Assembly: GCA_030602265.1 (NCBI GenBank) | Contig: JAUWAB010000011.1 | Coordinates: forward strand, 1-64,000 | DNA: 64,000 nucleotides | Origin: Prolixibacteraceae bacterium | GTDB lineage: Bacteria > Bacteroidota > Bacteroidia > Bacteroidales > Prolixibacteraceae | Direction: 5' to 3' | Shown here: positions 5,774 through 49,141 of the stretch, piece by piece | How the letters are laid out: every line of letters begins with the position of its first letter | Numbering within the stretch: the first letter of the stretch is position 1 | Program-made: the position numbers and the translations under genes | Notes under the pieces: model-generated | Told to the model about the DNA's origin: nothing | What the model saw: the letters and a program-made list of their open reading frames with translations, nothing else | Databases searched by the model: none

Positions 5774-7099
5774 ATGCTTAAGAGATTTTTGAGAACCGAG
5801 GTTATCAGCAAAGGAATTATTGATACGCTGAAATCGTCTGCCCTGGGAGGAATCTTACTGATTCTGTTTACCATTATCGCCCTGGTATGGGCCAATTCTG
5901 AATGGAAAGATTCCTATCATCACCTGTGGGAAATTCCGATAGGTATTGAAGTGGGCAGTTTCTTTTTTGAAATGCATTTACTGCATTGGATTAATGATGG
6001 CCTGATGGCCGTTTTCTTTTATATGGTCGGCCTGGAGATCAAAAGGGAAATCAAAGCCGGCGAATTAAGCTCCTTCAAAAAAGCAACCCTTCCTGCCCTT
6101 GGGGCTATTGGCGGAATGTTACTTCCGGCCGTCATCTACACCGCAATCAATTCAGGTTTCGGAACACCCGAGGCAGCGCGCGGCTGGGGCGTTCCGATGG
6201 CCACCGATATCGCATTCTCTCTTGGTATTATCAGCCTCCTGGGCAAGAGGGTCCCCCTGGCACTGAAAGTCTTCCTGGTCGCCCTGGCCATTGTTGACGA
6301 CCTGGGTGCGATACTGGTAATTGCCATTTTCTACACTTCAGAACTGAACTTCCAGTATCTGTTTGCCGGTTTAAGCCTACTGGCCTTCCTCTGGATACTA
6401 GACCTCCTGAAATTCAGGAAGATTCCTATCATTCATGTAATCGGGATAATCGTCTGGTATTGTTTCTACCAATCGGGAGTGCATGCCACCATTGCCGGTG
6501 TCTTGCTGGCCTTCCTTACTCCCATCAAAAGAGAACTCGACATCCGTGTTTTCCACAAAAAGATACTTGAAATGGAGATTGATGAGGAGGCTGTCAAGGC
6601 CGATACCCTGACCCATCACCACCTTGAGTATTTCAGGGCATTGCGACGGCAGTTAAAAAGGGTGCAGAGTCCGGTTCAAAGGCTCGAACACGACCTGCAC
6701 AACACAGTTAACTACCTGATCATGCCCATCTTTGCACTGGCCAATGCCGGGGTAACCTTTAACGGTGGCAGCGGTGCTGTCTCCACGGTTACAGTAGCCA
6801 TAGCCCTGGGCCTTTTCTTAGGTAAGGCATTCGGAATCACCTTCATGTCCTGGGCTGGCGTTAAAATAGGATTGGCTGAACTGCCTCCCGGTATCAGATG
6901 GAAAAACATATTTGCCGTAGCCGTTCTCGGAGGTTTAGGTTTTACCATGGCCATTTTTGTCGCCAACCTCGCATTCGGAATTCCGGTGCTGCTGGATCAG
7001 GCAAAAGTCGGTATATTCCTGGGATCGATCGTCTCCGGTCTGGTCGGATATTTAATGCTGAAATCCATGTTCCCGGCCGTTCAGTCGAAAAGTAAATAA
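5774..7099 (+). CDS. nhaA: Na+/H+ antiporter NhaA
   Basis: Inner-membrane antiporter that expels sodium in exchange for protons, for pH and salt homeostasis. At 441 aa with about 12 helices it fits bacterial NhaA. The diagnostic segment ALAIVDDLGAI carries the two adjacent aspartates (Asp163-Asp164 in E. coli) that bind Na+ and H+. MATDIAFSLG and GLGFTMAIF are also family signatures. Residues about 250-310 form a long charged cytoplasmic loop seen in many Bacteroidota NhaA proteins. It is followed by an inverted repeat and an ArsR-type gene. Confidence 0.95.
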   Translation: MLKRFLRTEVISKGIIDTLKSSALGGILLILFTIIALVWANSEWKDSYHHLWEIPIGIEVGSFFFEMHLLHWINDGLMAVFFYMVGLEIKREIKAGELSSFKKATLPALGAIGGMLLPAVIYTAINSGFGTPEAARGWGVPMATDIAFSLGIISLLGKRVPLALKVFLVALAIVDDLGAILVIAIFYTSELNFQYLFAGLSLLAFLWILDLLKFRKIPIIHVIGIIVWYCFYQSGVHATIAGVLLAFLTPIKRELDIRVFHKKILEMEIDEEAVKADTLTHHHLEYFRALRRQLKRVQSPVQRLEHDLHNTVNYLIMPIFALANAGVTFNGGSGAVSTVTVAIALGLFLGKAFGITFMSWAGVKIGLAELPPGIRWKNIFAVAVLGGLGFTMAIFVANLAFGIPVLLDQAKVGIFLGSIVSGLVGYLMLKSMFPAVQSKSK

Positions 7100-7152
7100 A
7101 TTGAACTTCAGACTCTTTTGTACTATTCTTTTACAGAGTTAAATTTTCAATA

Positions 7153-7197
7153 AATACTGACGGAGGAATCATTGAAATCGATACCTCCGTCAGTATT
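7153..7197. promoter_or_regulatory. Perfect 14-bp inverted repeat upstream of the ArsR-type gene
   Basis: AATACTGACGGAGG at 7153-7166 is repeated inverted as CCTCCGTCAGTATT at 7184-7197, with a 17-nt loop. No T run follows on either side, which weakens a terminator reading. The right arm falls where the -33 element of the downstream promoter would be, so an operator for the ArsR-type repressor is plausible. Confidence 0.55.
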
Positions 7198-7212
7198 AAT
7201 CCAATATAGTTA

Positions 7213-7220
7213 TATATTTG
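7213..7220 (+). promoter_or_regulatory. -7 box of the ArsR-type gene
   Basis: TATATTTG matches TAnnTTTG and lies 19 nt before the ATG at 7240, giving a leader of about 13 nt. Confidence 0.5.
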
Positions 7221-7239
7221 TATTTCAACATTCATTAAA

Positions 7240-7542
7240 ATGGCAGAGATCAAGGAACTGGATATTGAAAGACTCGAACAGGTTGCCAATATGCTCAAGG
7301 CAATGGCCCATCCTATGAGAATTGCCATACTGAAACACCTTGAGGGCGACAAGAAGCTGACGGTAACCGAGATCCATGAACTGTTGGGTATTGAGCAGTC
7401 AACCACCTCGCACCACCTGGGCATTCTCAAGGACAAGGGTGTTCTGTGTTCGCGCCGGGAGGGAAAGAATACCTATTATTTTCTTAAAAGCAATATCCTG
7501 ATGCAGGTAGTTGACTGCATCAACCACTGTGCCTGCGAATAG
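7240..7542 (+). CDS. ArsR-family winged-helix repressor
   Basis: Small (100 aa) ArsR/SmtB-type transcription factor. The N-terminal helices lead to ANMLKAMAHPMRIAILKHL, the helix-turn-helix is VTEIHELLGIEQSTTSHHLG, and the wing follows at REGKNTYYFL. The C-terminus ends in CINHCACE. Such a terminal Cys-rich tail could bind a metal or respond to redox, but the classical alpha3 CxC metal site of ArsR is absent. No obvious target operon follows; rdgB lies next with its own promoter. The nearest candidate target is its own promoter, or nhaA upstream. Confidence 0.85.
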   Translation: MAEIKELDIERLEQVANMLKAMAHPMRIAILKHLEGDKKLTVTEIHELLGIEQSTTSHHLGILKDKGVLCSRREGKNTYYFLKSNILMQVVDCINHCACE

Positions 7543-7636
7543 AGCATAATCAAGGTACCAGCCTGTAACTCCTCCCCTTCAGCATTTCCCGATTTTAATT
7601 TTTTGCACTAATCTCCTTATTTATCCCCGAATGACT

Positions 7637-7644
7637 TATTTTTG
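7637..7644 (+). promoter_or_regulatory. -7 box of rdgB
   Basis: TATTTTTG matches TAnnTTTG and lies 16 nt before the ATG at 7661. It overlaps the alternative start at 7631, so it decides for 7661. Confidence 0.5.
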
Positions 7645-7660
7645 CCTGAAATCATGTTTT

Positions 7661-8245
7661 ATGAATCTTGTAATCGCATCAAACAACACCCACAAGATAC
7701 AGGAGATTCAACCTATCCTTGACAACTCATTCAGTCTGATGAGCCTTTCAGAAATTGGTTGTGCGGACGAGCTGCCCGAAGAACAGGAAACCCTGGAGGG
7801 CAATGCCTCCCAGAAAGCCTGGTACATATATAACAAATTCGGATACAACTGTTTTGCCGACGACACCGGGCTTGAAATTGAGGCACTCGGAGGGGAACCC
7901 GGAGTTTATTCGGCAAGATATGCAGGCGACGGTAAGGATGCCGATGCAAATATTGACAAAGTTCTGGACAAGCTGCACAAAATAAATAACCGTAAAGCCC
8001 GTTTCAGAACTGTTATTTCTTTGGTTCTTAACGGCATTGAATACTCGTTCGAAGGAATTGTTGACGGAAAGATTCTTACGGAGAGGCAAGGAACAGGTGG
8101 GTTTGGTTATGATCCCATATTTCAACCCGATGAAAGCGACAGGTCTTTTGCCATGATGTCCATTTCCGATAAAAACCGTATTAGCCACAGGGCCAGGGCA
8201 GTGATAAAGCTTGCCGAATTTTTGAAACAACATGAATCAGCGTGA
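7661..8245 (+). CDS. rdgB: XTP/dITP diphosphatase (RdgB/HAM1)
   Basis: Hydrolyses non-canonical purine triphosphates (dITP, XTP, ITP) to monophosphates, cleaning the nucleotide pool. Family marks: an N-terminal VIASNNTHKIQEI that binds the triphosphate, FADDTGLEIEALGG with the metal ligand Asp, GVYSARYAGD, and GFGYDPIF with the C-terminal SHRARA. I use the ATG at 7661 since an upstream ATG at 7631 would overlap the promoter box and add an untypical leader. The stop overlaps the GTG start of porZ by 4 nt, so they are co-transcribed. Confidence 0.94.
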   Translation: MNLVIASNNTHKIQEIQPILDNSFSLMSLSEIGCADELPEEQETLEGNASQKAWYIYNKFGYNCFADDTGLEIEALGGEPGVYSARYAGDGKDADANIDKVLDKLHKINNRKARFRTVISLVLNGIEYSFEGIVDGKILTERQGTGGFGYDPIFQPDESDRSFAMMSISDKNRISHRARAVIKLAEFLKQHESA

Positions 8246-10596
8246 CAAATAACAGATTACCCATACGAAGGTTTATCATCCTGATGTTAGCCGGCCTCTT
8301 ACAGCTGACAGCCTTTTCCCAGAGAAAACCGGGAGAGTGGCAGGATTATCTCTCATTTGCCAACGCCATCAGGCTTACAGAAGGAGACAACAAGATTTTT
8401 TGTGCAACTGAAGGCGGGCTATTTTATACAGACCTCACAGACAGGAGTCTTACGAAGCTGACCCGCAATGACGGGCTTACGGACGCAGGGATTCATCAGA
8501 TCGCTTACGACAAAATCAATAACCTGCTTCTGATTGCCTATAAGAACAGTAATATAGACCTGGTATTCAGGAACCGGATCGTTAATCTGGGTGATATTTT
8601 CAGGAAACAGATGACAGGAGATAAAACCATTAACAACATTCTGTTCCACAACAACTCAGCATTTCTTGCCTGCGGATTCGGGATAGTGGAAATCAATATC
8701 GCCAGGCAGGAAATCAGGGACACTTATATAATCGGTCCTTCCGGGAACCAGATACCCATATTCGATACAGAGACCGATGGACAGCGGATATTTGCAGCGA
8801 CATCCGAGGGTGTCTATTCCGCCTCGCTGAACAATCCGAACCTGCTTGATTACAGGAGCTGGACCAGGGAATCCGCAATACCCCGGCCAACTTCGAAATT
8901 CAGTCATCTGGGATATTTTAACGGAGAGATAATCGCAAACTACACCCGTGACCAATGGTCCGGAGATGAGATTTACGCCCTGAGGAACGGGAGTTGGTTC
9001 AGGGTTATGCCTGAAGTTAATTTCGTCAATGACCTGAAAGTTTCCGGGAACCACCTGGTAATAACTGGCAGGAATGAAGTCCTGATCTATGACCGGTCAC
9101 TGAACCTGATCGGCCACATAAAAAATTATCCGTTGAATGGGAAGAACCTGACTGAGCTGATAACCCGTTCAGCCCTTATCGGGCCCGACGGCAACATCTG
9201 GATAGCAGATCAACAGGCAGGACTGATTGGTTTCTCCGGACAAACGGCAGAACAATATATACCTAAAGGACCTTTGAGTAACAGCATTTTCCACCTGAAC
9301 TGGCAGAATAACTCCCTGTGGGTTTCTGCCGGGGGGAGAACAGATCCGTGGAGTAACCAGTTTCGCCCGCCACTTTTTCAGGAGTACAAAGAAGGGCAGT
9401 GGAATTATTTCGGAAAGGAGCAATACCCTGAAATGACCGGCTTTTTTGACATTGTGCAAACCATTACCAATCCTGCAGATCCGGGACATCTGTTTGCTGC
9501 CAGCTGGGGAGGCGGTCTCCTCGAGTTCCGTAATGGCCAGCTGATCAAACGCTATAATAACCTGAACAGTCCGCTGGAAACGGCCATACCCGACCAGCCC
9601 AATGAACCATTTACCCGGATAGGCGGCATGGCCTTCGACAGTGACAATACTCTCTGGATTACCAATGCCCAATCTTCGAAAGGACTGCATTCACTGTCCC
9701 CGTCAGGGCAATGGAACTCATTCGTTTTAACGGAAGTTGCCGGATTCCAGTACACCATAGGACAAATACTGATTACCCGGAACGGTGACAAATGGATTGT
9801 GATTCCCAGAGGCCGGGATGTCTATGTGCTTAATAAAGACGCAACCCAAAAAAGATACCTGCCGGTAACTTCCTATTTTAACAACGGACAGATAGAAATA
9901 TTCAACCGGATGAATGACGTCTATTCCATTGCCGAAGATCTGAACGGCGACATCTGGATTGGCACATCCAAAGGAGTAGCCGTGTTTTCCGGCACCCAGA
10001 AACTATGGCAAAACGGACAATATTACGCTTTCCAGCCCAGCCTTGATATGGGAGACGGAATTTACCACCCGCTGCTCGAAACAGAAACCATAACAACCAT
10101 CGCAGTTGACGGAGGTAACCGCAAATGGCTGGGAACCAAAAACTCCGGTCTATACCTGGTATCGGCCAGGGGAGATGCCGAAATCATGCATTTTACCACT
10201 GCCAACAGTCCACTACCTTCAGACAACATCATCAGCCTTGCCCTGAATCCAAATACCGGCGAACTCTATATAGGAACCGAGAAGGGCCTGGTATCCTATC
10301 AGGGAGATGCACCTGAGGGTAAAAACCATTTCGATGAGGTTTACGTTTACCCCAATCCGGTCAGGGAGACATACGACGGTCAGATTTTTATCAACGGTCT
10401 TATGAAAGACAGCGACATCAGGATAACCGATATTGCCGGAAACCTGGTCTATAAAACCCGGTCTCTGGGCAGCCAGGCATCCTGGGATGGAAAGAATCTG
10501 AACGGGAGACGGGTAAGCACCGGAGTATACATGATCTTCATTTCAGATGCGAACGGAGAACAAACCCACATTACCAAGGTTTTGTTTATCAGGTAA
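8242..10596 (+). CDS. porZ: PorZ-like T9SS beta-propeller surface protein with CTD
   Basis: Likely PorZ, the outer-surface component of the type IX secretion attachment complex that presents A-LPS for anchoring of cargo. A GTG start gives a basic N-terminus and a hydrophobic signal peptide ending near LTAFSQ. Two-component-regulator-type propeller repeats follow (DNKIFCATEGGLFY, GDIWIGTSKGVAVF, NRKWLGTKNSGLY, TGELYIGTEKGLV), forming two propellers. The last about 85 residues are a T9SS C-terminal domain (VYPNPV, ITDIAGNLV, VSTGVYMIFI). The 784-aa length agrees with P. gingivalis PorZ (about 776 aa). The rdgB-porZ-recO order gives tight spacing on both sides. A propeller protein of another role is the alternative. 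Confidence 0.82.
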   Translation: MTNNRLPIRRFIILMLAGLLQLTAFSQRKPGEWQDYLSFANAIRLTEGDNKIFCATEGGLFYTDLTDRSLTKLTRNDGLTDAGIHQIAYDKINNLLLIAYKNSNIDLVFRNRIVNLGDIFRKQMTGDKTINNILFHNNSAFLACGFGIVEINIARQEIRDTYIIGPSGNQIPIFDTETDGQRIFAATSEGVYSASLNNPNLLDYRSWTRESAIPRPTSKFSHLGYFNGEIIANYTRDQWSGDEIYALRNGSWFRVMPEVNFVNDLKVSGNHLVITGRNEVLIYDRSLNLIGHIKNYPLNGKNLTELITRSALIGPDGNIWIADQQAGLIGFSGQTAEQYIPKGPLSNSIFHLNWQNNSLWVSAGGRTDPWSNQFRPPLFQEYKEGQWNYFGKEQYPEMTGFFDIVQTITNPADPGHLFAASWGGGLLEFRNGQLIKRYNNLNSPLETAIPDQPNEPFTRIGGMAFDSDNTLWITNAQSSKGLHSLSPSGQWNSFVLTEVAGFQYTIGQILITRNGDKWIVIPRGRDVYVLNKDATQKRYLPVTSYFNNGQIEIFNRMNDVYSIAEDLNGDIWIGTSKGVAVFSGTQKLWQNGQYYAFQPSLDMGDGIYHPLLETETITTIAVDGGNRKWLGTKNSGLYLVSARGDAEIMHFTTANSPLPSDNIISLALNPNTGELYIGTEKGLVSYQGDAPEGKNHFDEVYVYPNPVRETYDGQIFINGLMKDSDIRITDIAGNLVYKTRSLGSQASWDGKNLNGRRVSTGVYMIFISDANGEQTHITKVLFIR

Positions 10597-41311: not shown

Positions 41312-42682
41312 TCAGCCCTGAGGAGCTTCTCCGGGAACCGGAACAGTTGCCGTGGCCATGATACCCACATCACCCATGATATAAGTAGTCGGGCCCAGTT
41401 TCATATCAGAGTTCATCATTTCATCCCAGGTAACTTCCTTGCCGGTATAGGCAGATACACGTCCCATAATGGCTGTCATATTGCTGATAGCAATTCCTTC
41501 AGCTTCGTTAACCGGAATATTCTGGCGGATACAGGTAATCAGGTCGACATGCTCCTGGCGGTATGGATCGATACGCTGTGGTTTACCTTCAGCATCGGCA
41601 GGATACTGGAAGGCATAAATTTCATTGCCCTGAAGGTCAAATATTTTATTTGCACAGTTGGTCTGTCCTTTGGTACCGCGGATCCACTCGCTGACATTGT
41701 TGGTACAGCCATTGATCTGTCGGCACATGCTGTGCATATGCATCCCGTTGTCATATACAAAATCAACCGAGAAGTTATCGTACTGATCACCGGTAACCCT
41801 GCGATGGCGTGAGCCGAAACCAACCGCTTTGGTAGGATGTGTTCCGGTGAACCAGTTGATCACATCGATATTGTGAACATGCTGTTCAACAATATGATCA
41901 CCAGATAACCAAAGCCAGTTAACCCAGTCACGGATCATATATTCCATTTCGCTCCAGTCGGCATTTGGATTGCGGTGCCAGAGTTTTGACTGGTTCCAGT
42001 AGGCATTAGCCGAGATAATTTCGCCGATTTCGCCGGTGGCGACTTTCTTGTAAATTTCGATGTATTCGTGCTGGTGACGACGCTGGGTACCTGCAACGAT
42101 CTTAAGTCCGAGGCCGTCGGCAATCTTCGATGCAGCCATTACTTTACGGATACCGGTTGGATCTACCGCAACAGGTTTTTCGAGGAATACATGTTTCCGT
42201 GCATTCACGGCAGCCTCGAAATGATCGGGCCTGAATACCGGGGGAGCACAGAGAATGACTACGTCGACATCAGCTGCGATTACCTTTTCATAATTGTCGA
42301 AACCCACGAAGCAGTTTTCTTCAGGAACATCAACGTTGAAATCTTTTTTAATACGTGCCTTGCAAGAGTTTACCCTGTCCTGGAATACATCTCCGAGAGC
42401 AGTAATGGTTACATTCGGACCAGCTGACAACCAGTTCAGTGCAGCACCGGTTCCACGGCCACCACAACCAATCACACCTGCTTTCAGCGGTTTTCCGTCC
42501 GGTGCGGCATCAAGCAGCGGGGGAATAGCCAAATCACTCAGTTTTTTGAAAGAGCCTCCTGAAGTGGCGCTTCCACCACCCGATGAACAGGAAACCAAGG
42601 GGTTAAAACCTACTGCTCCAACAGCACCAATAGCAGCGGCGCCTGTCAGAAACTTTCTTCTGGAAAAATTATTTTCACTCAT
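41312..42682 (-). CDS. Gfo/Idh/MocA-family oxidoreductase, Tat lipoprotein
   Basis: NAD(P)-dependent sugar-type oxidoreductase with a Rossmann domain (about 60-190) and an alpha/beta C-terminal domain. The export signal is FSRRKFLTGAA (Tat) with a lipobox at LVSCSS, so the enzyme is folded before export and anchored. The dinucleotide loop is GVIGCGGRGTGAA and the conserved EKP is in HVFLEKPVAVD. HNIDVINWFTGTHP is typical of secreted Bacteroidota members, some of which act as glycosidases with bound NAD. It lies 30 nt downstream of the cytochrome-SUMF1 fusion and is probably co-transcribed with it. Confidence 0.92.
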   Translation of the reverse strand: MSENNFSRRKFLTGAAAIGAVGAVGFNPLVSCSSGGGSATSGGSFKKLSDLAIPPLLDAAPDGKPLKAGVIGCGGRGTGAALNWLSAGPNVTITALGDVFQDRVNSCKARIKKDFNVDVPEENCFVGFDNYEKVIAADVDVVILCAPPVFRPDHFEAAVNARKHVFLEKPVAVDPTGIRKVMAASKIADGLGLKIVAGTQRRHQHEYIEIYKKVATGEIGEIISANAYWNQSKLWHRNPNADWSEMEYMIRDWVNWLWLSGDHIVEQHVHNIDVINWFTGTHPTKAVGFGSRHRRVTGDQYDNFSVDFVYDNGMHMHSMCRQINGCTNNVSEWIRGTKGQTNCANKIFDLQGNEIYAFQYPADAEGKPQRIDPYRQEHVDLITCIRQNIPVNEAEGIAISNMTAIMGRVSAYTGKEVTWDEMMNSDMKLGPTTYIMGDVGIMATATVPVPGEAPQG

Positions 42683-42712: not shown

Positions 42713-44230
42713 CTAATTACCTGTTTTATCATCAAATTCACATACTACCCTGAAGCTGATATAATTACAATCAGACAACCACCAGATACTCTTGGGCATC
42801 TGGGGATCTGACTTCAACCAGGCCTCAGTACGGGTATAATCACGTGCAGCACTTCTGACATTTGCGGCATCGCTTCTGAAATATCCACCGCGCACAACCC
42901 TTTCGGTTCCGGATTCCGGGCCTTTTGGATCGGTGGCTCCATCCTGCAGCATACTATAAGCATCCGGCGCATACCAGTCGGCAACATATTCGGCAGCATT
43001 CCCGAGCATATTCTTCAGACCGAAAGGATTGGCATCCACTTTTTCGGGCCGTTGCGTCCTGAGAAGGCTGTTTGCATTATAAACCACAAAATTGTCGATC
43101 TCGGTTTTCCGCTTCCGGAAAAAGCCCCCATCGGTGAAATCCTTTGGGTTACCTTCAAAAAAGTAGGGTGTCTGGGTACCACCCCGGGCTGCATACTCCC
43201 ACTCTGCCTCAGTCGGAAGGCGGTAGGTTTTGCCGGTAACCTGCGACAGCCATCTGCAATAGGTTTCGGCAGCATGGTAACTCATGGTTATGGCCGGTCT
43301 GTCACCCATACCCCAGTTCTGGTCAGGCTGACCATAGGGCGGAGTCGGACCGGTTATGGCATCTACTTCGGCCGACAGGCGAGATCCCTCTGTATCGGTC
43401 GACCTGCCCTCTGCAGCCGTCTGCGTATAGAACACCAGAAACTCATTCCAGGTTACTTCTACTTCGGCCATAAAGAACGGACTGACATTGACCGTCCTGA
43501 CCGGACCTTCATCGGAACTTCTCATGGGTTCGGAATCGGGGCTTCCCATCTGGAAAGAGCCTCCCGGAATCGCAATCATATTGAATGACACTACCGAACC
43601 CGGTATAGTCTCGGTAAAGTTTTCGTGTGTACTGACCACTGCCGGTTCGGTATATACTTCCTGGTTGATGGCTACGCCTGATCCAAAATTGACGTTGGTG
43701 GAATGCACCCGGTTAGGATCATAATGGCCTACATCAATGTGACAATTGAGACAAAGCAGATCCTTCTCGTTCATGGAATAATATAGGTGGGCCTCCATAC
43801 CTTCTTTCGATAAATTCCGGGGAAATAAATTGGTATGACACCCAACGCAGGAGGACTGGAAAGTAAAATGCTGCGCCATCTCAACGGTACGCTTGCCTTC
43901 CCAGTTGAAATCGGCACTGTCTTTAAATAAAAAACCATAAACATCCTTGATACCCAGCCTGATCTTTTCTTTCATGTAACCTTCACCCTTGGGAGGCAGG
44001 TGACATTCGACACAGCCTACCTGAATTCCGCTCCGGGTATCATAATGCGGTGACAATTTCCAGGATTCAAAAACATGAGGGTGAACATGACATACCTCAC
44101 AAAACTGATTGGTAGAGGTGGCTTCAACGGCCTTGTGGGAATAAAATGCAACAATTACGCCGAGAATAAAACCAATAAAAACAACGAACAAGAGTCGTTT
44201 GCGCAAAAAGTGTCCAAATTTTTTAAACAT
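42713..44230 (-). CDS. Tetraheme NapC/NrfH-like cytochrome fused to a SUMF1-type domain
   Basis: Unusual two-part protein of 505 aa. An N-terminal membrane anchor (about 13-30) leads into four CxxCH heme sites: Cys44-His48 (CEVCH), Cys73-His77 (CVECH), Cys128-His132 (CVGCH), Cys160-His164 (CLNCH). Size and spacing resemble NapC/NirT/NrfH quinol dehydrogenases. From about 218 (MIAIPGGSFQMGS) to the end is a formylglycine-generating-enzyme/SUMF1-like domain: RLPTEAEWEYAARGG, NMLGNAAEYVADWY, RVVRGGYFRSDAANVRSAAR, ISFRVVCE. The copper-binding cysteines of true FGE after RGG are missing, so it is not a sulfatase maturase. One frame joins both parts with no frameshift. Located outside the inner membrane. 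Confidence 0.88.
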   Translation of the reverse strand: MFKKFGHFLRKRLLFVVFIGFILGVIVAFYSHKAVEATSTNQFCEVCHVHPHVFESWKLSPHYDTRSGIQVGCVECHLPPKGEGYMKEKIRLGIKDVYGFLFKDSADFNWEGKRTVEMAQHFTFQSSCVGCHTNLFPRNLSKEGMEAHLYYSMNEKDLLCLNCHIDVGHYDPNRVHSTNVNFGSGVAINQEVYTEPAVVSTHENFTETIPGSVVSFNMIAIPGGSFQMGSPDSEPMRSSDEGPVRTVNVSPFFMAEVEVTWNEFLVFYTQTAAEGRSTDTEGSRLSAEVDAITGPTPPYGQPDQNWGMGDRPAITMSYHAAETYCRWLSQVTGKTYRLPTEAEWEYAARGGTQTPYFFEGNPKDFTDGGFFRKRKTEIDNFVVYNANSLLRTQRPEKVDANPFGLKNMLGNAAEYVADWYAPDAYSMLQDGATDPKGPESGTERVVRGGYFRSDAANVRSAARDYTRTEAWLKSDPQMPKSIWWLSDCNYISFRVVCEFDDKTGN

Positions 44231-44282: not shown

Positions 44283-44398
44283 GCAAAATATTAAACCGCA
44301 AAACCTTTCTGCGATGATTTATCAACTATTTAGACCGATTTTGAACACATTTTGCGGAATAGCGGAAAGGTTTTCCAAATACACCATTATAATGGTAA

Positions 44399-45618: not shown

Positions 45619-46950
45619 TTACCTCAGCACGGTCACCTTCCTGACACGGATATCCTTAACCGGCCTGAATTCCCGGCCGACCTCTGTTTTCCTGATTTCA
45701 TCGACCACCTCCATTCCTGAAACCACTTCACCAAAAATGGTATAACTTCCATCCAGGTGTGGTGCACCTCCGATCGTTTTATATACCTGCCTTTGTTCAG
45801 AAGTAAACCTGTGTCCGGTTTCCGATTCGATTTCATTGAGCTCACGGTCACTGTAAATTCGCCCCGAAACGATATAATACTGAGATCCTTCCGATCGACG
45901 CCTGGCATTCTCTGTGTCGGGCCGCCTGGGCGAGCCCACCATCCCGCGCCGGTGAAATTTTCCGGGTACTATATGCGCTGGCATGGTGTAGCCCGGTCCC
46001 TTCCATCCTACCACATCATCCTTTCCGGCATACCTGGTATCAGCAGCACCACTCTGAATGCCCAAATCGGCAATAACCCTGTGTATCAGCAAGCTGTCGT
46101 AAAAGCCCTCTTCAGCAAGCCGGATGAAATTATCCCGGTAATCAGGGGTCTCATTAAACAGCCGAATCGTTATATCACCGTAATCCGTGGCAATACGGAT
46201 TCCCCTTACCCGCTTATTGGCTTCAGCTGATTTCAGATCGGTATGGCTCTGTGTATCCGACAGCGGTTTAACCTCTTCACCGGCTTTCCGTAAAATACTC
46301 GAAATAAGTGCCGCCGGAATAACAAGGCTTCGTTGCCTGTAATCCACAACATCTGAAAAACCAATACCCAGCAGATGCTGATTGCTCAGAAAGACCGGTA
46401 CCCCATATGCATTGCGGAGAATCTGGTTGGAAACCTGATAAAGCGGAAGGCCTGTCTTGTTGGTATGGGCTTCCACCTTGCCCGTCCTGAGCTGAAGGGT
46501 CCCTCCCGAAGGTTTTGCGACAATATAGGTCTTTGCTGCATTGGGAACGCTGTCGGTATATAATTTCAGCGGATTCCGGGATGCACCATCTACTTTCAGG
46601 ACAATCAGGTCACTGATCCTGTCAAGAACGACAAAACCGGTTGATTCCATGCTCTGCTGACCGTCATGAGGAAATAGAACAGCCCTGTTTGCAGATCCCA
46701 AAAGCGATAGCCGTGTCACGACCAGGTTGCTGTCGGCAAAAAATCCCTGGCCGGTTTCAAGGATCCGTTCACCATCATAGGTATTTATAGTGACCACCGA
46801 TGACAGCAATCCCGACCACCTGCCAGGATCGGCATCAGCATCGTCCTGCTGAGGCGAAGGTTGGTTCTCTTTTGATCTTCCCGGACCGCATCCTGCAGTA
46901 GCAGCGATCAGAAAGCCCATAATCAGAATCCTGAAGAAACCCTCTTTCAT
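45619..46950 (-). CDS. Lipoprotein fusion of trypsin-like pseudoprotease and cyclophilin
   Basis: From the preferred start (46950, MKEGFFRILIMG) a lipoprotein signal ends at ATAGCGPG. Residues about 45-230 look like an HtrA/trypsin-type beta-barrel: SSVVTINTYDGERILETGQGF, ISDLIVLKVDG, GVPVFLSNQHLLGIGF. The usual TNxHV histidine is replaced by VVTRLSLL and GNSGGP by RNAYGVPV, so the triad is not visible. Residues about 255-440 are cyclophilin-type peptidyl-prolyl isomerase (IRIATDYGDITIRLFNETP, SQYYIVSG, YTIFGEVVSGMEVVDEI). The cyclophilin Arg/Phe core is partly changed (LIHRVIADLGIQSG). It follows two further cyclophilin genes in the same direction. Role in envelope protein folding is inferred. 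Confidence 0.82.
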   Translation of the reverse strand: MKEGFFRILIMGFLIAATAGCGPGRSKENQPSPQQDDADADPGRWSGLLSSVVTINTYDGERILETGQGFFADSNLVVTRLSLLGSANRAVLFPHDGQQSMESTGFVVLDRISDLIVLKVDGASRNPLKLYTDSVPNAAKTYIVAKPSGGTLQLRTGKVEAHTNKTGLPLYQVSNQILRNAYGVPVFLSNQHLLGIGFSDVVDYRQRSLVIPAALISSILRKAGEEVKPLSDTQSHTDLKSAEANKRVRGIRIATDYGDITIRLFNETPDYRDNFIRLAEEGFYDSLLIHRVIADLGIQSGAADTRYAGKDDVVGWKGPGYTMPAHIVPGKFHRRGMVGSPRRPDTENARRRSEGSQYYIVSGRIYSDRELNEIESETGHRFTSEQRQVYKTIGGAPHLDGSYTIFGEVVSGMEVVDEIRKTEVGREFRPVKDIRVRKVTVLR

Positions 46951-47388
46951 TAGAATATATATTAGTTTAAGCATTCATATACAAAACGTTGCCATCATCC
47001 TCCAAATCCCGGGATTACAGATGGGTAGCCTACAGGCTGCGGGCGAACATATGACCCCGGCTGCGGGCGAATTCATTTTTGATACCTCTTTACTACCCAT
47101 ATATCACCTCTGCGGGGCTAATGGCATGCATCCACTATGGGCTTTTCAGTCCATCCCATTTTTGCTGAACCGCAATCGCTTATTCATATCCTTTTGTCAC
47201 TTTTCCTTTACAATCAGAACTCCTTTGTGGTGAGTCATTCATGTGAATAATTGTATTGTTTTTTAAAGGTCGCATGCTTTTATTTTCAAAGGCTCCGGAT
47301 ATTCGTAATCAGCTGGCTGTAGCGTATTCCGTCGATCCAGTCCGTAAATCAGCTGGTCATGCCATACTGAAAACCGGAAATGGTAGCA
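46951..47388. other. Gene-free stretch with short GC-rich repeats
   Basis: 438 nt without a credible gene. It contains GGCTGCGGGCGAA twice (47035-47047 and 47059-47071) and a third CTGCGGG at 47110-47116 inside CTACCCATATATCACCTCTG. A short frame at 47021-47233 has no family pattern. This could be an interspersed Bacteroidota repeat or the remains of one. Confidence 0.5.
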
Positions 47389-48198
47389 TCACCTGATGAT
47401 CCTTACCGTAATTTTCACATCCGTAAGCGGCCGGTCGTTTCCGTCGGTTTTCAGGGCGGCAATCCGGTCAATCACCTCAAAACCATCGGTACATTCCCCG
47501 AATATGGTATACTTGCCGTCCAGCTCAGGGTATCCTCCCGTGGTGGTGTAAGACAACCTCTGCTGTTCTGAAAAGGTAAGCTTTCCGGGTGCCATGGCAT
47601 ATTCAGTATCAATCTGCCGGCGCAACGGACCAGCCAGGTCCCTGAATTCCTCCGCCCGGTTTTCTTCCCTGAGCCTGCTGAGTTTCTCCCGGACCTCATC
47701 CGACAGGATTCTGTCGGTAATCCGTTTCATGATCGGATTGTTAACCGCCATTTCGAGAGTGTCCAGCCTGCTTTCGGTAAATACTTTTCCTTTAACAATA
47801 TAGAACTGGGATATATCAGACTGTTTGAAAGGATTCTTTTCATCAGGCTGGCGGGGGGCACATAAGGCACCTTTTTTATGGAAATAATGAGGCAGAATCT
47901 CGTCATCGACGGTATGGTCAGGATCTCCGTACCCTATCCTTTTCCCTGGAGCTGCATTTCTCGACGACCGGGATCCACCCTGTATCAGGAAATCAGGCAA
48001 AACTCTGTAAAACAACGTCCCGTCATAATATCCCTCCCGTGCAAGCTGAAGAAATGCGTCCCGGTGCCGGGGGGTATCATCATACAGTATAAAGGTCATA
48101 TCCCCCAGGTTGGTAGAAATCTTCACCTGATGAGACTGAGCTGAAGTTTCAGCAAAAAGAAAAATAACCCACAATCCGGCTACCCAGAAACGTATCAT
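47389..48198 (-). CDS. Exported cyclophilin-type peptidyl-prolyl isomerase
   Basis: 269 aa with a signal peptide (about 1-20, FAETSAQ). The cyclophilin fold shows KISTNLGDMTFILYDDTPRH, LFYRVLPDFLIQGG, SQFYIVKG and YTIFGECTDGFEVIDRI. An inserted helical segment of about 60 residues (about 150-215) interrupts the core between SQFYIVKG and the YPELDGKYTIFGE strand. The active-site Arg in FYRV and Gln in IQGG are kept, so activity is likely. Its start overlaps the stop of the upstream cyclophilin gene by 1 nt, so both are on one transcript. Confidence 0.92.
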   Translation of the reverse strand: MIRFWVAGLWVIFLFAETSAQSHQVKISTNLGDMTFILYDDTPRHRDAFLQLAREGYYDGTLFYRVLPDFLIQGGSRSSRNAAPGKRIGYGDPDHTVDDEILPHYFHKKGALCAPRQPDEKNPFKQSDISQFYIVKGKVFTESRLDTLEMAVNNPIMKRITDRILSDEVREKLSRLREENRAEEFRDLAGPLRRQIDTEYAMAPGKLTFSEQQRLSYTTTGGYPELDGKYTIFGECTDGFEVIDRIAALKTDGNDRPLTDVKITVRIIR

Positions 48199-49019
48199 TA
48201 ATTCAATACTTTAATTTTCATCTTAACATCCGCCACAGGTCTGTCGGCCGCACCGGTTTCGACTGCGGCAATTTTGTCGATAACCTCCAGTCCTTCAATA
48301 ACCTCGCCAAAAACGGTGTAGTTATTGTCTAACGACGGATATCCCCCTATGGAGGTGTAAGCGGCACGCTGAGCCTCTGAAAAGCGGAACTGTGGTGCAG
48401 CCCTGAAAATACTGTCGGCTTCCTCACGCAACTCAGCCACCCTGATATTAAATCCCTGTTGATTGTTTTCTGCCCTGAAGCGGTTAAGCTCATCCTGTGC
48501 TGCCTCGAAATGTTTTCTGAAGATGGTTTGCTGTAGTCCCATATTTCGTTGCATTTCCATGGTATCCAGCTCACCGGGTCGCCATACCTTGCCCTGAACG
48601 ATATAAAACTGGGAACCGCTGGATTTCCTCTCAGGATTTACCTGGTCTCCCTGCCGGGCAGCTGCCAGCGCACCCTTTTTATGAAAAAAACCATCAGTAA
48701 TCTCAGCGGGAAGGGTATAATCCGGCCCTCCGCCACCCAATCTTGATCCCGGTTCTGCATTCCTGGATTCCGGATCACCACCCTGGACCATGAAGTTCTT
48801 TATCACCCTGTGGAACAGAAGGCCATCGTAAAAACCTTCTCCGGCAAGCTTGATAAAATTATCCCGGTGTTCCGGAGTCTCATTATACAATTTTACCTTA
48901 ATATCTCCCATATCTGTTGAAATCAACACCATGCGGCTTTCGCCCGTCTGAACGGAACTGCTGCATGAAAGCGATAAAAACAGAATGAATACAACTGATA
49001 ACATTAAAATCCGTTTCAT
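48198..49019 (-). CDS. Lipoprotein cyclophilin-type peptidyl-prolyl isomerase
   Basis: First gene of the cyclophilin row. I start at ATG 49019 (MKRILMLSVVFILFLSLSCSSS), which gives a classic lipoprotein signal 22 nt from a promoter. The frame upstream to 49115 would overlap that promoter. Core: STDMGDIKVKLYNETPEHRD, LLFHRVIKNFMVQGGDPESR, SQFYIVQGK, YTVFGEVIEGLEVIDKI. A helical insert of about 65 residues sits at the same place as in the next gene. Arg and Gln of the active site are present. Predicted to help fold envelope proteins. Confidence 0.93.
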   Translation of the reverse strand: MKRILMLSVVFILFLSLSCSSSVQTGESRMVLISTDMGDIKVKLYNETPEHRDNFIKLAGEGFYDGLLFHRVIKNFMVQGGDPESRNAEPGSRLGGGGPDYTLPAEITDGFFHKKGALAAARQGDQVNPERKSSGSQFYIVQGKVWRPGELDTMEMQRNMGLQQTIFRKHFEAAQDELNRFRAENNQQGFNIRVAELREEADSIFRAAPQFRFSEAQRAAYTSIGGYPSLDNNYTVFGEVIEGLEVIDKIAAVETGAADRPVADVKMKIKVLN

Positions 49020-49040
49020 ATTTATTTCCGTGTTTGAGGG

Positions 49041-49071
49041 CAAAATTAAAAAATTCTCAACCCGACACAAA
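49041..49071 (-). promoter_or_regulatory. Full Bacteroidota promoter of the cyclophilin genes
   Basis: On the minus strand TTTG (49068-49071), a 19-bp spacer, then TAATTTTG (49041-49048). Both boxes and the spacing fit the consensus. Confidence 0.65.
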
Positions 49072-49141
49072 CCAATCCTCATAATACCCTTAGGATATGG
49101 AGTATAATGCTGCAAAATATCCGGGAAATGCCAAATTTAGG

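Follow-up and report, generated by a model that had tools for sequence, protein, structure and literature searches.

A tetraheme cytochrome–SUMF1 fusion encoded beside an exported Gfo/Idh/MocA dehydrogenase: a candidate quinone-linked subunit with an ApbE-like motif

Introduction

Why would a NapC-type tetraheme cytochrome be joined in one reading frame to a SUMF1-type domain, and which partner would such a protein serve? The question is raised by a 64,000-nucleotide stretch of a Prolixibacteraceae bacterium (contig JAUWAB010000011.1 of GCA_030602265.1, positions 1 to 64,000), referred to here as the window. Our preferred answer, for which we judge the chances to be even, is that the protein would serve as the membrane subunit for electron transfer in a periplasmic dehydrogenase encoded by two genes, carrying electrons from dehydrogenase-bound NAD(H) by way of SUMF1-bound FMN and four hemes to menaquinone.

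Results

An intact and recurrent fusion gene

The gene is a single ATG-started open frame (Table 1) whose product passes the Pfam gathering scores for both PF03264 (NapC/NirT; 101.8 bits versus 24.1) and PF03781 (147.5 bits versus 23.3) and carries four CxxCH motifs, as do all 54 fusion matches (loci L001–L054). The in-frame, 505-codon architecture described in an earlier note on this DNA was thus borne out. A frameshift, misjoin or assembly error, set beforehand as the observation that would undo the case, was rejected because the full-length fusion recurs in other genomes. Matches at E ≤ 1e-30 occurred in 33 of 61 relative genomes, the window's own included; nearly all were full-length and several genomes held two copies, with one partial match (G019) and fragmentary extra copies in G010. 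Among the best 80 loci of a scan of species genomes, at least 14 were further full-length fusions, including those of Parabacteroides acidifaciens, Parabacteroides sp. ZJ-118 and Maribellus sp. YY47, and the remaining 66 were shorter or weaker relatives. The gene is uncommon in the phylum: only six of 395 evenly drawn genomes, the window's own included, gave a match at E ≤ 1e-60, and three of these six were fusions, namely that of the window's genome, one from another class (G429) and one (G431) that, judged by its neighbours, is the P. acidifaciens gene already seen as L054. The window's genome has one fusion copy, its other SUMF1 and NapC-like genes being distant relatives only. Open-licence papers yielded no description of a fusion between SUMF1 and a NapC or other multiheme module, in keeping with the earlier remark that its author knew of no characterised protein of this design.

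Two further features of the window are an imperfect inverted repeat upstream of the fusion gene at 44300–44374 (16-nt arms, 88% complementary, 43 nt apart) and, at 45619–49115 (−), three consecutive cyclophilin-type isomerase genes, one of them with a Trypsin_2 domain.

Table 1 Features of the fusion gene and its neighbour in the window
Feature	Window position	Strand	Length or basis
NapC-type tetraheme cytochrome fused to SUMF1-type domain	42713..44230	-	505 aa
N-terminal helix, residues 2-38; putative membrane anchor (inferred role)	44117..44227	-	structure model
Cytochrom_NNT domain, residues 11-172	43715..44200	-	Pfam, E 4.5e-29
CxxCH 1, residues 44-48, followed by His50	44087..44101	-	motif scan
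CxxCH 2, residues 73-77	44000..44014	-	motif scan
CxxCH 3, residues 128-132	43835..43849	-	motif scan
CxxCH 4, residues 160-164	43739..43753	-	motif scan
Lys89 to Asp96, aligned to NrfH Lys82 and Asp89	43943..43966	-	alignment
SUMF1/FGE-like fold, residues 200-499 (Pfam FGE-sulfatase 217-467, E 7.1e-43)	42734..43633	-	Pfam and structure model
DAITGPT, residues 290-296, ApbE-like flavinylation motif; Thr296 as candidate FMN site	43343..43363	-	alignment
Residues 475-484, family-conserved, partly low-confidence in the model	42779..42808	-	alignment and model
Gfo/Idh/MocA oxidoreductase with Tat signal, 30 bp downstream of the fusion gene	41312..42682	-	Pfam, alignment, fold match

A NapC-domain heme module with conserved quinone-site residues

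The heme module shares with the NapC/NirT/NrfH quinol dehydrogenases the PF03264 domain, the four CxxCH motifs and the equivalents of NrfH (2j7a) Lys82 and Asp89, which align to Lys89 and Asp96 and are each kept in all 46 distinct fusions. We take these two NrfH residues to serve the quinol site and Met49 to lie next to heme 1. Unlike those enzymes, the window protein carries a fused SUMF1 domain and has a His (His50) opposite NrfH Met49, again in 46 of 46 distinct fusions; this substitution, together with a score of 71.1 bits against the NrfH NCBIfam equivalog cut-off of 134.2, rules out identity with NrfH. The protein scores below the NCBIfam cut-offs for NrfH, NapC/NirT and TorC and therefore represents a separate type within the NapC-domain proteins.

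Elsewhere in the same genome (G000 contig C83, L184:3946–6673), a GMC oxidoreductase gene is followed by one for a nine-CxxCH protein weakly matching Cytochrom_NNT, which together are perhaps another quinone-linked sugar dehydrogenase.

A conserved partner dehydrogenase

Neighbour clustering placed a Gfo/Idh/MocA gene in all 34 fusion loci L021–L054. Such a gene directly adjoins 45 of the 46 distinct fusions, 44 times downstream on the same strand and once upstream (L050); the sole exception, L016, stops at a contig edge. It is also present in the loci of 33 of 44 SUMF1 family members that lack the NapC part, and near none of the more distant SUMF1 matches (0 of 13 loci). Distances for the one gene correlate with those for the other (r 0.78 over 63 pairs, with species kinship ignored), and five genomes that hold two copies show matching splits for the two partners. 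The dehydrogenase carries a Tat signal whose arginines are invariant in all 42 aligned sequences, as are E168-K169-P170 and H270, and its leader, read by eye, suggests a lipid anchor.

Exported enzymes of the Gfo/Idh/MocA type are widespread in Bacteroidota and Planctomycetota. Among proteins of solved structure, the neighbour is most closely related to inositol dehydrogenases, sugar oxidoreductases, DgpA and a glucuronide-3-dehydrogenase. It shares its fold with glucose–fructose oxidoreductase (1h6d), aldose–aldose oxidoreductase (5a03) and glucuronide-3-dehydrogenase (8tdi) but differs from them in being encoded beside a heme membrane subunit; the first two recycle their held cofactor through a second substrate. 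With one representative identified per cluster, TIM-barrel genes were found in 15 and ThuA genes in 6 of the 34 fusion loci, and neither type among the window genes scanned by Pfam. These neighbours would suit an oxidative breakdown of keto-sugars.

This last point bears on the direction of flow. Electrons could also run from menaquinol through the hemes and the SUMF1 domain to the dehydrogenase, which would then reduce a keto-sugar or another acceptor. NapC/NrfH proteins normally oxidise quinol, and the fusions keep the quinol-site residues, but reduction of bound NAD+ by menaquinol is uphill by textbook potentials, and the TIM-barrel and ThuA genes would fit oxidative catabolism. We therefore regard this reverse flow as distinctly unlikely.

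A SUMF1 fold lacking the FGE cysteines

The structure model of the window protein (mean pLDDT 75.1, pTM 0.63) shows a confident SUMF1 fold over about residues 200–499. Domain and fold are those of FGE/SUMF1 proteins (PF03781), from which the protein differs in its motif loop, its Gfo/Idh/MocA neighbour and, as previously noted, its missing active-site cysteines: residues 448–470, which we take to correspond to the FGE cysteine pair, contain no Cys, and Ser453 aligns opposite one of the two. In the aligned region, 65 of 90 family members likewise have none, 22 have one and three have two. A formylglycine-generating enzyme was thus ruled out for the window protein.

The closest solved fold is PvdO (PDB 5hha; Z 29.4, rmsd 2.5 over 246 residues), followed by a Treponema variable protein and FGEs. 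This match, and the NCBIfam model name for PvdO, dihydropyoverdine dehydrogenase, would fit a SUMF1 domain that is itself a PvdO-like catalyst with the hemes removing its electrons. The score, however, is far under the PvdO equivalog cut-off (102.3 bits versus 500), the FGE cysteines are missing, and both the fixed neighbour and the apbE genes described below would be left unexplained, which makes such catalysis very unlikely in our judgement. PorK/GldK, structural SUMF1 proteins of Bacteroidota, also match the fold and could suggest a structural or adhesin-like domain that is attached to a cytochrome yet takes no part in redox chemistry. We consider this highly improbable given a score of 98.3 bits against the GldK/PorK equivalog cut-off of 350 and the fusion of the same subfamily to two cytochrome families.

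Two stretches of the model, residues 273–300 and 476–484, are of low confidence apart from single better residues; they cover an ApbE-like motif and a conserved DPQxPKSxWW. The motif stretch and conserved residues 475–484 may form a cofactor or partner site. As the motif loop was modelled under pLDDT 50, no flavin pocket is visible in the model.

Two adjoining proteins of the same genome (G000 contig C110, L181:3065–6355 and 6405–9896; 1096 and 1163 aa) each combine an FGE-type domain with two CxxCH motifs, and the first contains a hydrazine-synthase-alpha middle domain (PF18582, E 1e-32).

An ApbE-like motif across the SUMF1 subfamily

When neighbour proteins were scanned for the consensus recognised by ApbE flavin transferases, the matches were the SUMF1 proteins themselves. 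We used an exact form, D-x-x-[ST]-G-A-[ST], taken from PMC12052999 and PMC11334425, and a relaxed form, D-x-x-[ST]-x-[AP]-[ST]; according to PMC12052999, single changes at the Gly or Ala reduce labelling and do not abolish it. Across an alignment of 90 members, the Asp, the [AP] position and the terminal Thr/Ser were each present in 90 of 90. The relaxed motif occurred in 81 of the 90 and the exact consensus in 15, comprising 10 of 46 fusions and 5 of 44 members without a NapC part. DAITGPT of the window protein falls one residue outside the exact consensus, with Pro for Ala. As background, 3 of 1102 ORFs of the same loci contained the exact and 24 the relaxed motif anywhere in their length, and none of the five other SUMF1 proteins of the window's genome had the motif. 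All five members from the phylum sample, one being the gene already seen as L054, contained the relaxed form. The family boundary behind these counts was drawn after the alignment had been seen, with 13 of 103 aligned rows, none of which has the motif, set aside; two of these (L106 and L115) reach scores similar to that of L107, which was kept.

The motif has the same form as that of ApbE-flavinylated extracytosolic proteins (FMN_bind, DUF2271 and DUF3570; PMC8238504), and apbE genes lie near SUMF1 relatives. The likeness ends at a different fold, the Pro-for-Ala exchange in the window motif and fusion loci devoid of apbE. SUMF1, FGE, formylglycine and Gfo are absent from the main texts of the ApbE papers searched, and no paper linking SUMF1 with ApbE or with Gfo/Idh/MocA enzymes was found in the open-licence literature. 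The dehydrogenase was separately considered as the flavinylated protein and rejected, as 10 partner dehydrogenases tested had no recurring ApbE motif.

apbE genes beside relatives and their absence from fusion loci

Non-NapC relatives share their locus with an apbE gene in 18 cases, which are spread over Bacteroidota, Verrucomicrobia, Planctomycetota and Acidobacteria. Counted from the SUMF1 gene in the 16 measurable loci, it ranks first in nine, second in six and fourth in one. In a 72-sequence tree, 14 of the 18 encoded proteins form one clade (support 0.97), the other four falling elsewhere. Seven of the 18 genomes (G065, G066, G071, G076, G082, G481 and G482; completeness unstated) had no match to FMN_bind, DUF2271 or DUF3570, and the other 11 matched at least one; two of the seven, G066 and G481, each gave a single ApbE, which maps to the place of the gene next to SUMF1. 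PMC8238504 describes how orphan apbE genes identified DUF2271 and DUF3570 as substrates, and the SUMF1 candidate is reached by that same logic.

None of the 34 fusion loci L021–L054, some with short flanks, contained apbE, and a dedicated ApbE encoded there was accordingly rejected. The exact consensus was found in none of the 16 aligned apbE-linked members nor in any ORF of the 18 apbE loci; exact-motif members have no apbE beside them, and the association of apbE linkage with a non-Gly motif was not significant (Fisher p 0.22). Within the relatives set, ApbE presence did not separate genomes with a fusion match from those without (30 of 33 versus 25 of 28). In G033, 99% complete and with two fusions, no ApbE was found and FMN_bind proteins are present.

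These observations give room to a flavin-free complex, in which the SUMF1 domain would only dock the dehydrogenase onto the hemes, the loop would be a binding surface and the relatives' apbE genes would serve another protein. The conserved dehydrogenase neighbour, the lack of apbE in all 34 fusion loci and the departure of both DAITGPT and the 16 apbE-linked members from the exact consensus all agree with docking, and SUMF1-type folds among the structure matches serve as variable binding proteins. Transfer of a hydride from NADH to heme nevertheless requires a two-to-one-electron switch. Docking also sits poorly with the recurrence of apbE across several phyla, where some of the genomes gave no match to any of the three known substrate families, and with a terminal Thr/Ser in 90 of 90 members; on balance we hold it to be rather unlikely.

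Proposed electron path

In the NAD(H)–FMN–heme–menaquinone chain that we prefer, the Tat-exported Gfo/Idh/MocA enzyme would oxidise a sugar-like substrate, its nicotinamide probably being retained by the enzyme, as no free NAD is to be expected beyond the cytoplasm. The SUMF1 domain would act as an adaptor whose FMN is probably linked covalently to Thr296 in the DAITGPT loop, presumably by an ApbE with its gene at another site of the genome. This FMN would accept hydride from bound NADH and pass single electrons to the four hemes, which would reduce menaquinone at the NapC-type site marked by the domain and its conserved residues. Such a chain explains why the neighbour is constant, why the subfamily carries the motif, why relatives are linked to apbE and why the residues of the quinone site are kept.

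The earlier note had suggested that the SUMF1 domain may be the terminal partner (a reductase) or may bind a ligand or substrate on the heme module. That suggestion was incomplete and named no partner; the conserved Gfo/Idh/MocA neighbour and the ApbE-like loop make an electron-transfer adaptor more likely than a terminal reductase.

If the chain is correct, it would be a new bacterial route for electrons from extracytoplasmic sugars into the respiratory chain. A dedicated quinone-linked subunit would explain how bound nicotinamide is recycled outside the cytoplasm in this group, and would tie periplasmic sugar oxidation to respiration.

Related domain combinations

The 46 fusions form one group in the tree with support of 0.41, rising to 1.0 when L055 and L062 are included. 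Of these two relatives, both on the sister branch of the fusions, L055 has the gene order SUMF1–apbE–Gfo and the motif DGVTGPT, and L062 is flanked on either side by Gfo genes and shows the motif DAITGPT. In the verrucomicrobial loci L063, L065, L066 and L077, placed elsewhere in the tree, PSCyt1 cytochrome domains are fused to the same SUMF1 domain, and L077 additionally contains apbE. In relatives, the domain is accompanied by an operon apbE, a fused Planctomycete-type cytochrome or both. PMC8238504 describes other systems in which flavin and cytochrome modules replace one another or are combined.

More broadly, we think it plausible, at somewhat less than even likelihood, that the SUMF1 fold constitutes a new class of ApbE-flavinylated electron carrier and makes up, with exported Gfo/Idh/MocA enzymes, a family of respiratory dehydrogenases. 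In such a family, covalent FMN would re-oxidise a locked nicotinamide, and the connection to the membrane would be provided by hemes of the NapC type, by cytochromes of the Planctomycete type or by a separate carrier. A SUMF1 substrate of ApbE would, if true, give a new role to a domain widely misannotated as FGE or sulfatase-modifying factor.

Two further loci, L189 (7198–15150) and L190 (7059–15364), encode SUMF1 and YceI proteins, then PSCyt1/PSCyt2/PSD1, DUF1501 and PSCyt1 proteins, with Pfam assignments made on L189 only; their family members have no Gfo/Idh/MocA neighbour, and L189 also contains apbE.
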